Assembly (NCBI GenBank): GCA_944325875.1
Contig: CALVBU010000001.1
Span: 62,001-126,000, forward strand
Source of the DNA: Candidatus Gastranaerophilales bacterium
GTDB taxonomy: Bacteria; Cyanobacteriota; Vampirovibrionia; Gastranaerophilales; Gastranaerophilaceae
Reading direction: 5' to 3'
DNA length: 64,000 bases
Positions 48,798-52,670 of this stretch are shown piece by piece. Positions within the stretch are counted from its first letter, which is position 1. Every line of letters begins with the position of its first letter. The notes under the pieces were generated by a model. It saw nothing but the letters and a program-made list of their open reading frames with translations, had not been told where the DNA came from and did not search any database. Made by a program: the position numbers and the translations under genes.

Positions 48798-49910
48798 ATG
48801 AGTATGAAAATTTCTAATATAAAAAACTACACAATTACACAATTTAAAGCGTCAAATAAAAGTAATCAAAATGAGCAGAAGTCAAAAGATAAAAGTAACT
48901 CAACAAAAACTGCAATATACATCGGAAGTGCTGCTGCATTGAGTCTTGCTGCTTATTTTATATTAAAAAAGCCTAAAAAAATAAAAACAATGTTAACTTC
49001 TACAGAAAAGATAAACCCTACAGAAAATCCAAAGCCAAAAGTTAAAGATCCGGAAGTGGCTAATATTAATAAAGAAGAAACATTAAAACCTGTTGAACCT
49101 AGTGAAACTAAAGATAAAATAGACCAAACAGCACTTACCCCAAATCCTGAATTAAAACCAAATGTAGACCCGCTACCATATAATCCTGAAATATCCAAAG
49201 TTGAAGATTTTAAACCTTATTTTGACGGCGACTTTGAAATTCAGAAAAAAGAATCAAAGAATGCAAATACAACAACATACATTCAAAAAAGTGAGAATGA
49301 AACCTTCAAAGACATTTTAGTATTTTCAAAAGAAAATAAACTATTGCGCAGAATAACTCAATATTTTAATAAAAATGGACAGATGTGGTCAAGAGTTTAT
49401 CAAGGTGATGAATCTAAAATATTAGAAAACCCTAAAAATTTTCCAAAAAGCATCTATGACTCAGATTTTTTGGTAAAAGAATTTTCAGGAGAAGCAAAAC
49501 AACCTCTTGGGCAAAGTGATATTAGTGAAGGTTACGAAAGACTTACTAGAGTGGCTAAACCTGATGGCACAGCTAAAACATATCAGGGATTCTTTAATAA
49601 AAATAAAAGATTACACGATTATACAATCTACTACGAAAAATTTAACAACAACTTGGGTTGTTTTGATAGAATACACGAATCTCAGCCTGACTATGTTATA
49701 AAATATAATTATGCCTATAACAAAGATGGCAAAATTTCTGCAATCGCTAAACAAGATATTTTAAAAGATAATAACTGGCATGGAGTTTATCAAAATAATG
49801 GATTTGATGGATTTCCGATGTTTGTAGATCTTAAAGACGGCAAAGGATTTAATGAATTTAAAGGGAATCTTGATATGAAATACCCTGAATTTAATCCTGA
49901 TAACTTCTAA
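48798..49910 (+). CDS. Unknown single-pass F-x-x-tag protein
   Basis: The 370-residue protein begins MSMKISNIKNYTITQFKASN, similar to the N-terminal tags elsewhere (F16-K-A18). A polar Lys/Asn/Ser linker leads into one membrane segment (about 39-57) and a KKPKK anchor. A Pro/Glu/Lys-rich spacer (70-135) and a C-terminal domain with repeated Tyr-rich strands (FDGDFEIQKKESK, RIHESQPDYVIKYNYAYNKDGKIS) follow. The second half resembles the YD/MORN-like repeat style but is not assigned. The ATG may be the third codon; the ribosome site is weak. Confidence 0.65.
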   Translation: MSMKISNIKNYTITQFKASNKSNQNEQKSKDKSNSTKTAIYIGSAAALSLAAYFILKKPKKIKTMLTSTEKINPTENPKPKVKDPEVANINKEETLKPVEPSETKDKIDQTALTPNPELKPNVDPLPYNPEISKVEDFKPYFDGDFEIQKKESKNANTTTYIQKSENETFKDILVFSKENKLLRRITQYFNKNGQMWSRVYQGDESKILENPKNFPKSIYDSDFLVKEFSGEAKQPLGQSDISEGYERLTRVAKPDGTAKTYQGFFNKNKRLHDYTIYYEKFNNNLGCFDRIHESQPDYVIKYNYAYNKDGKISAIAKQDILKDNNWHGVYQNNGFDGFPMFVDLKDGKGFNEFKGNLDMKYPEFNPDNF

Positions 49911-49966: not shown

Positions 49967-51277
49967 ATGAAGTGCTATAAATCTAAATGGATATTGACAT
50001 CTGAGGATCAAGTTCTTGAAGATATGGCTCTTGTCGTAGACGAGGGTAAAATTATCGACATCATACCTAACAGTCAAGTTAATTTTGAAGAAAAATATGT
50101 AAAAGAGCTTGGGAATGCAGTAATCACTCCTGGATTTATCGATTTATTGACTCAGTTTCAATACACTGATGAAAACAGCACAACAGCCCAAGGACTAAAA
50201 AATAAAATTAAAAAATTCTTCATCAACCTTAATGAAAAATATACTTTTGCAGGCGTTTCTCAAAACTCATATTCACGCAAATGGGCGAACATACTCGCAA
50301 AATATTTTGTGATGGACAGAAACCAAAAGATTAAATCTTTTGAAGATGGCGTAAATCTTTCAATAAAAGCCGGTACTACCTGTGTTGCTCAGGTATCAAA
50401 AGAGTTTAAATATTTTGACGTTATAAATAAAATGCCGATCAAAACATACCTTTTCTTTGAAGTGTTTGCTGACACTTCTATGAAAAGTAAAAAACAATTC
50501 AAAGAAATACGTGCAAAAGTAGAAGACCTAGTTATGCACAAAGGCGAAAATACTCATATAGGCATAATGCTTAACTCAATATCAGGAGTTCATAAAAAAT
50601 TATGGGAATTATTCTCTAAATACTGCAGAAAGCATAATATGCTTTTAATGACAAGATTCGCTGAATCTAAAGATGAAATCGAATGGCTTGAACACAATTT
50701 TTCTGATATTGATTTACTTCACAAGTTTATGGGTATGAGAAAAATTACACCATACGAAAAAGATTTAAATCCTGTAGATTACCTTAACAACTTAAAGGTA
50801 TTAACAAAAAAAGTAATTGTAGCTAACGCCAATTATACAAATGAAGAAGAATTAGAAGCACTTGCTCAAACCGGTGTAAAATTCATCTATCAGCCATCTT
50901 ATAATGAAGAAATTTGCGGTAGAGGATATTCACTAAAAACAATTTTAAAATATTTCCCGCAAAACTTTGGCTTCTCAACGCAAAGCTTTAAGTCTGATAA
51001 GGACTACAGCCTTCTAAAAGAAGCAGTGGAAGCAAACAAAGATGGAGACTTAGACGTAGTAGAACTAATTAAATATTTAACTATTTATCCTGCGAGAATT
51101 CTAAGATTAGACAATTCAACAGGTTCTATAAAAATAGGAAAATGCGCAGACTTCAACGTATTCAAACTTGAAGACGGAGAAGATTACAGAGATTTAGTAA
51201 AAAAACACAGCCCTTACGCGACTTATGCTAACGGCAGAAAACTTGTTAAAAGAGGAGATATCAGGTACACATTATGA
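49967..51277 (+). CDS. Amidohydrolase-fold protein lacking all metal ligands
   Basis: The 436-residue protein aligns along its length with ATZ/TRZ/SsnA-type amidohydrolases (PGFIDxHxH, HLAETxxE, LAHCVxLS, GTDG). Each metal-binding residue is replaced: the first His pair by Leu61 and Gln63, the HLAE His by Arg230, the AHC His by Asn287 and the final Asp by Gln339. The end IGKCADFNVFKLEDG is normal for the family. It should be catalytically dead as a metal hydrolase and may be a binding or scaffold protein. It overlaps yjbQ by four bases, so the two are coupled. Confidence 0.85.
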   Translation: MKCYKSKWILTSEDQVLEDMALVVDEGKIIDIIPNSQVNFEEKYVKELGNAVITPGFIDLLTQFQYTDENSTTAQGLKNKIKKFFINLNEKYTFAGVSQNSYSRKWANILAKYFVMDRNQKIKSFEDGVNLSIKAGTTCVAQVSKEFKYFDVINKMPIKTYLFFEVFADTSMKSKKQFKEIRAKVEDLVMHKGENTHIGIMLNSISGVHKKLWELFSKYCRKHNMLLMTRFAESKDEIEWLEHNFSDIDLLHKFMGMRKITPYEKDLNPVDYLNNLKVLTKKVIVANANYTNEEELEALAQTGVKFIYQPSYNEEICGRGYSLKTILKYFPQNFGFSTQSFKSDKDYSLLKEAVEANKDGDLDVVELIKYLTIYPARILRLDNSTGSIKIGKCADFNVFKLEDGEDYRDLVKKHSPYATYANGRKLVKRGDIRYTL

Positions 51278-51690
51278 CAGTAATTAATGAAAAATTTATT
51301 GTTCATACTAAAGGAAATACCGAAATAAAAGATATAACAAGACAAGTCCAAAATGCTGTGTATAAGCACAATTTACAAAATGCAGTTGTTCATGTCTATG
51401 TTGCAGGTAGCACTGTCTCTATCACTAATATCGAATATGAACCAGGACTTTTAAAAGATTTTCCAGAAGCTCTTGATAAAATTGCACCTGTTGAAAAAGA
51501 ATATCATCACGATGAGACCTGGCACGATGGAAATGGTTATGCCCACGTCAGAGCCTCAATTGTGGGGAATAATACAACCGTTCCTCTTATAGATGGCGCA
51601 CTCCAACTTGGGCAATGGCAACAAATAGTCCTTGTGGATTTTGACAACAAAGCAAGAACAAGAACTGTCTATGTTCAAATACTGTACTAA
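51274..51690 (+). CDS. yjbQ: YjbQ-family protein (UPF0047)
   Basis: The 138-residue protein has the family signature HDETWHDGNGYAHVRASIVG, then VPLIDGALQLGQWQQIVLVDFD. YjbQ has weak thiamine-phosphate synthase activity in E. coli, but its real role is unsettled. It starts at the last bases of the preceding amidohydrolase-like gene. Its stop overlaps that of the convergent XRE gene by sharing CTAA. Confidence 0.92.
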   Translation: MTVINEKFIVHTKGNTEIKDITRQVQNAVYKHNLQNAVVHVYVAGSTVSITNIEYEPGLLKDFPEALDKIAPVEKEYHHDETWHDGNGYAHVRASIVGNNTTVPLIDGALQLGQWQQIVLVDFDNKARTRTVYVQILY

Positions 51691-51908
51691 TCTCTAAATT
51701 TTAAAAGAGTTTCAATATCTACCCCAAGAGCATTAGCAAGCTCAAGAATTTTGCCTAATGACATATTTTGACGTCCACACTCAATACAGGCAATATAATT
51801 TTGACTTTTATCAACCAATTCTGCAAGCTTTTCCTGAGTCAAGTCTTTTTTAATACGCTCTATTTTAACATTTTTGCCAAACTTCTTTAACAATTCTTGC
51901 TTATTCAT
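51687..51908 (-). CDS. XRE-family transcriptional regulator
   Basis: The 73-residue protein is one Cro/CI helix-turn-helix (KNVKIERIKKDLTQEKLAELVDKSQNYIACIECGRQNMSL). TATAAT (51922-51917) lies eight bases before the ATG at 51908, with no Shine-Dalgarno, so the message is probably leaderless. It is divergent from a pilin-like gene, with repeats between. It is similar in size and fold, but not closely in sequence, to the XRE protein at 34774-34995. Confidence 0.88.
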   Translation of the reverse strand: MNKQELLKKFGKNVKIERIKKDLTQEKLAELVDKSQNYIACIECGRQNMSLGKILELANALGVDIETLLKFRD

Positions 51909-51995: not shown

Positions 51996-52670
51996 ATGAG
52001 TAAAAATGCATTTACGTTAGCTGAGGTGCTAATAACATTAGGGATAATCGGAATAGTAGCAGCAATGACATTACCGACTCTTGTTAACAGAACAAGACAG
52101 AAAGAACTAGAAACAGGATTCAAAAAACAATATACGCTTTTACAGCAAGCCGTCATGAGTATAAGTTATGAAGATAATTTACCATTTGAGCGAAATAGCT
52201 ATGGTGCAAAATTTAAAAAAAGACTCGCCGAAAAATATAAAGCAACAAAAGATTGCGGAGCAATAAATAATAATACAGGTTGTGTTATTAATAATGAAGA
52301 TAGCACCTTTACATACTACAAAACCTTGAATGGAAATACTCTAAGTAGGATGTATTTTGATGATGGAGGATTCATTACAATTGAAGGTACAACATTTTTC
52401 ATAGAACAAGGTGCGCAATCAAGCGATACCGGCTATTTAGTTTCAATAGATGTGAATGGGTACAAGAAAAAGCCTAACTTAATGGGATATGACTTTTTTA
52501 TGTTTCAAATAACAAAAGAGGGAAAGGTATTACCTATGGGCTCAGAAAAAACTTATTGGGCAGATGAAAAAGAAGAATATTGCTCTAAAACATCAAGCTC
52601 CAGCATCAATGGTTTTACCTGTGCTTATTATGCAGCAACAGACGAAGATTACTTTAAAAACCTGCATTAA
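51996..52670 (+). CDS. Type IV pilin-like / pseudopilin protein
   Basis: The 224-residue protein begins MSKNA-FTLAEVLITLGIIGIVAAMTLPTLVN, with the prepilin site (Ala -1, Phe +1, Glu +5) and assembly helix. The globular domain differs from the other three pilin-like proteins and has several cysteines near the end (EEYCSKT, FTCAYY). AGGAGGG precedes the ATG. It is divergent from an XRE gene. A minor pilin or surface-adhesin-type role is possible but not shown. Confidence 0.88.
   Translation: MSKNAFTLAEVLITLGIIGIVAAMTLPTLVNRTRQKELETGFKKQYTLLQQAVMSISYEDNLPFERNSYGAKFKKRLAEKYKATKDCGAINNNTGCVINNEDSTFTYYKTLNGNTLSRMYFDDGGFITIEGTTFFIEQGAQSSDTGYLVSIDVNGYKKKPNLMGYDFFMFQITKEGKVLPMGSEKTYWADEKEEYCSKTSSSSINGFTCAYYAATDEDYFKNLH

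Follow-up and report, generated by a model that had tools for sequence, protein, structure and literature searches.

Aminofutalosine (6-aminodeoxyfutalosine) deaminase, a zinc enzyme of the futalosine pathway of menaquinone synthesis, is structurally represented by 7lkj and 7lkk from H. pylori and by Nis_0429 from Nitratiruptor (3v7p). The MTA/SAH deaminases (4gbd, 4f0r, TM0936) are built on the same barrel and have an active zinc site. In mononuclear deaminases such as ADA and TM0936, the beta-6 His is catalytic and is not a metal ligand. The amidohydrolase superfamily also includes a retained inactive homologue, the pseudo-dihydroorotase (pDHO) of Pseudomonas ATCase, which works like a scaffold (PMC7053772).

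The locus analysed here lies in a 64,000-nucleotide stretch of a Candidatus Gastranaerophilales genome (the window) and encodes an amidohydrolase-like protein that overlaps yjbQ. The window protein resembles aminofutalosine deaminase in fold, with Z scores of 39–40 over about 390 residues, in its best whole-sequence matches and in the Glu of the HxxE motif, and its intact relatives track the Mqn pathway. However, neither the beta-6 His nor any of the four metal ligands is present in it, and its host lacks MqnA/E/C. It also shares the barrel of the MTA/SAH deaminases (Z 37–40), but these are not the nearest by family model. Like pDHO, the window family has lost its metal ligands while the gene is kept under selection. 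It belongs to a different branch, however, and the partner of pDHO cannot do without it, whereas in the present case each gene also occurs alone. The window yjbQ is an ordinary member of the YjbQ/UPF0047 family (TIGR00149); the overlap is the sole unusual feature seen.

Fold and active site of the window protein

The window protein matches the Pfam family Amidohydro_1 (1.1e-17). Its best family model is aminofutalosine deaminase (NCBIfam NF006269), with a score of 94 bits that is far under the curated cut-off of 320. An AlphaFold model built from 46 homologues shows the full fold, with a pLDDT of 94 and a pTM of 0.93. The model adopts the ATZ/TRZ-type (subtype III) fold, including the composite beta-sandwich domain, and gives Z scores of 30–40 to the family. 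Its matches include the MTA/SAH deaminase 4gbd (Z 40.5), 7lkk (Z 40.2) and 3v7p (Z 39.4). A sequence-only reading of the locus had proposed that the fold signatures are kept, and the Amidohydro_1 match and the Z scores of about 40 to zinc deaminases bear this out. The four-base overlap and both ORFs were also found as that reading described (Table 1). YjbQ matches PF01894 (E 3e-33, 114.9 bits against a curated cut-off of 27) and TIGR00149 (97 bits against 67.75).

Table 1. Features of the locus, in window coordinates
Feature	Position	Strand	Remarks
Lineage-specific ORF	48798..49910	+	370 aa; lies between obgE and the amidohydrolase; evolves fast or is missing in relatives
Pseudo-amidohydrolase ORF	49967..51277	+	436 aa; ATG start; aminofutalosine deaminase-like fold without metal site
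Leu61-Thr62-Gln63 codons	50147..50155	+	replace the HxH ligand pair
Arg230 codon	50654..50656	+	replaces the beta-5 His ligand; unchanged in all 62 class A proteins
Glu233 codon	50663..50665	+	retained catalytic Glu of HxxE
Asn287 codon	50825..50827	+	replaces the beta-6 catalytic His
Gln339 codon	50981..50983	+	replaces the beta-8 Asp ligand
Arg433 AGG codon	51263..51265	+	candidate Shine-Dalgarno for yjbQ; 8 nt before the yjbQ ATG
ATGA stop/start overlap	51274..51277	+	amidohydrolase to yjbQ
yjbQ (UPF0047)	51274..51690	+	138 aa; 'secondary thiamine-phosphate synthase'
Small XRE/HTH-like ORF	51690..51905	-	convergent with yjbQ; judged by eye
Type II prepilin-like ORF	51996..52670	+	between yjbQ and gpmI

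HMMER alignments to both 3v7p and 7lkj place R230 in the beta-5 His column. Against 3v7p, L61/Q63 also pair with HxH, N287 with the beta-6 His and Q339 with the beta-8 Asp. A multiple alignment that includes 13 intact homologues gives identical active-site columns, in agreement with the placement of the ligand site first made by motif. The pocket of the window protein is compared with those of intact homologues through these alignments, the folded model being of the window protein alone.

The metal ligands of ATZ/TRZ-type zinc deaminases, namely HxH, the beta-5 His and the beta-8 Asp, are absent, and so is the catalytic beta-6 His. The Glu of HxxE is present as E233 in all 96 sequences of the homologue set. 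The earlier claim that every metal ligand is replaced holds for Leu61/Gln63, Arg230 and Gln339, but Asn287, which had been counted among them, sits at the catalytic His. By alignment, then, four metal ligands and one catalytic residue are all replaced. The zinc-deaminase fold thus persists without its metal site.

Homologue classes and the menaquinone pathway

The homologue set comprises 96 distinct proteins from relatives and from GTDB genomes titled Candidatus Gastranaerophilales, including Candidatus Scatousia. Classes are defined by the residues at positions 61, 63, 230, 287 and 339. Class A (n = 62) carries L/F/M-Q-R-N-Q, class B (n = 3) FQRNE, class C (n = 16) HHRYN or HHRHN, and class D (n = 2) HHCHD or HHSHD. 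Class E (n = 13) is intact, with HHHHD.

The futalosine pathway was surveyed in 59 genomes with MqnA (PF02621), MqnE/MqnC (TIGR03700, E<1e-60) and a strong UbiA prenyltransferase as markers. These are confined to families f2, f3, f4 and f8, in which the homologue is intact wherever found. Genomes of the host's own family and of f7 have no Mqn markers or strong UbiA, and the homologue there is degenerate or absent. In particular, MqnA, MqnE and MqnC were not found in G000 or in any of the 36 own-family genomes searched. Every genome with an intact homologue has MqnA and/or MqnE/MqnC, and no genome with a degenerate form has any of these (Fisher 1e-9, relatedness of genomes ignored). In f2, the intact gene adjoins MqnA; this f2 homologue is distant and sits on a long branch.

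For all scanned intact homologues of f2–f4, the aminofutalosine deaminase model gives the highest score, and for L018 and L030 the best match among solved structures is Nis_0429. The scanned intact homologues reach at most 177 bits against the cut-off of 320. No futalosine hydrolase MqnB exceeds its cut-off in the Mqn-positive genomes, f2–f4 carrying MqnA/E/C without a recognisable one, and the MenD route falls under cut-off in every genome. Since MqnB was not detected, the ancestral step, deamination of aminofutalosine or another adenosine-type deamination, is inferred. Together with the sub-cut-off scores, this makes the ancestral substrate uncertain.

Gut Melainabacteria were described by Di Rienzi et al. 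as having no quinones or electron transport, and vitamin K synthesis was also proposed in one type (PMC3787301). Among open-licence papers, none was found on this pseudo-amidohydrolase family or on futalosine genes of Melainabacteria.

Stepwise loss of the metal site

In trees built with the ligand columns left out, classes A, B, C and D each form a clade and class E a basal grade, with the nesting E > D > C > B > A. Four class changes are needed, the minimum possible. A mixture-model tree of 36 rows gives 99–100% bootstrap support for each class. The order of loss read from the trees is the beta-5 His first, then the beta-6 His and the beta-8 Asp, and HxH last. The class D protein L016 has a Cys at the beta-5 His position that could still bind metal; binding may therefore have outlasted the first step.

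Intact orthologues had been named as evidence against a pseudoenzyme. Such forms do exist in other families, but the tree makes them ancestral and the losses derived and stepwise, which strengthens the pseudoenzyme reading.

Selection on the altered site

The replacements are fixed in the lineage, a point that the sequence-only reading had proposed to check in orthologues. Q63, R230, N287 and Q339 show zero variation in the 62 class A proteins, all from Gastranaerophilales. The median dN/dS of class A is 0.095 (range 0.01–0.19), compared with 0.14 for class C and 0.16 for class E (Nei-Gojobori, sequence pairs with dS<1.5). Furthermore, 18 columns are fixed differently in classes A and E, catalytic loops among them. 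The invariant new residues, low dN/dS and class-specific fixed columns point to constraint on a new state and not to decay.

A gene heading for loss after the menaquinone pathway disappeared would fit the absence of the pathway and the frequent loss of the gene within the host's own family (a match is present in 77 of 192 genomes). This is very improbable, however, given a dN/dS of about 0.1 or lower, the intact reading frame in all 62 class A sequences and the unvarying new residues; the selection data largely refute it. The frequent loss does indicate that the role is dispensable. With the metal site lost and its replacements fixed under such constraint, selection for a non-hydrolytic role, as first proposed, is the best reading.

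Strict re-fixation of polar residues at the old site, with Glu233 kept, would also fit a new metal-independent enzyme that uses Arg230, Glu233 and the pocket amides for a different reaction. We consider this improbable, as no conserved pathway neighbours were found and we know of no metal-free enzyme in this branch of the superfamily.

Overlap with yjbQ

A yjbQ gene lies directly 3' of the class A gene in 56 of 62 loci from many genera, nearly always with the ATGA overlap. The region often has the conserved layout obgE–[amidohydrolase–yjbQ]–gpmI–snf2. Most related loci have, between yjbQ and gpmI, either prepilin-like ORFs of weak similarity or no such ORF.

The last conserved Arg codon of the amidohydrolase is AGG in 37 of the 56 coupled genes, in none of the six uncoupled genes and at about 10% of other Arg codons (p about 1e-21 against other Arg codons and 0.003 against uncoupled genes, relatedness ignored). 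Uncoupled class A genes end in TAA. The AGG bias in coupled genes, at the right Shine-Dalgarno spacing, suggests that the coupling is probably under selection, and co-expression of the two genes by translational coupling is likely.

The overlap and the embedded Shine-Dalgarno could also reflect a dedicated pseudoenzyme–enzyme pair, in which YjbQ would have the pseudo-amidohydrolase as its scaffold or allosteric subunit, with the Pseudomonas pDHO (PMC7053772) as precedent. Such a pair is unlikely. Two clades of three proteins each have a class A gene without an adjacent yjbQ and keep the new residues invariant. Moreover, yjbQ was not found anywhere in genomes G003, G006 and G008, which all retain a class A protein with the new residues unchanged (dN/dS 0.027 for one pair). 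Conversely, yjbQ occurs without the amidohydrolase in many genomes, even within single genera and in some cases at the same obgE-side locus. Across 192 near-complete genomes the two genes show no significant co-occurrence (67/76 versus 94/116, p=0.23), and classes B–D were never found beside yjbQ. Since either gene persists without the other, an obligate partnership is not supported. The link between the two proteins that had been drawn from the overlap thus stands at the level of the coupled loci but not as a general dependence. Judged from gene content, the function retained by class A can do without YjbQ.

No partner gene recurs in more than a third of the 15 loci scanned for the 16 class C proteins. 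The three class B loci have common flanks, but they are close relatives.

Within the host's own family, window-type YjbQ and ThiE are weakly exclusive (Fisher p=0.036, phylogeny ignored), which fits the name 'secondary thiamine-phosphate synthase'. YjbQ as a substitute for ThiE was considered as an explanation of the pseudoenzyme and rejected: the exclusion is weak, and most yjbQ-bearing own-family relatives also lack full-length ThiC. A ThiC-family frame outside the window (G000:C15:10754-11902) has one in-frame TGA; its sequence diverges from that of ordinary ThiC, as does a similar gene in G002.

Discussion

The window protein is probably a pseudoenzyme derived from a zinc enzyme of the aminofutalosine deaminase type, whose metal site decayed in order and which is kept for a non-hydrolytic role. 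The ancestor would have been a zinc deaminase serving the futalosine menaquinone pathway, the genes of which are absent in the lineage leading to the quinone-less gut Gastranaerophilales family. The metal site decayed from the beta-5 His through the beta-6 His and beta-8 Asp to HxH, probably after loss of the pathway, and the new residues are re-fixed and held by purifying selection. The refashioned polar pocket (Gln63, Arg230, Glu233, Asn287 and Gln339) may bind a ligand, or the barrel may act as a scaffold, in either case without hydrolysis. The overlap with yjbQ would serve mainly co-expression and not an obligate complex. The strong selection after loss of the zinc site, together with the frequent yjbQ overlap, makes a new, non-catalytic job probable. 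More tentatively, the old zinc site may have become a metal-free ligand pocket, and the protein a metabolite sensor or regulator made from an orphaned menaquinone-pathway deaminase and, in most lineages of its clade, translated together with YjbQ.

These proteins provide a rare graded record within one bacterial order, from an intact site through the loss of one ligand and then of three active-site residues to the loss of all, tied to the disappearance of the pathway that the enzyme most likely served. The natural intermediates could be used to test at which point metal binding and activity disappear and what selection favours thereafter. Such genes should not be annotated as deaminases, nor should their presence in gut Melainabacteria be read as a sign of menaquinone synthesis.
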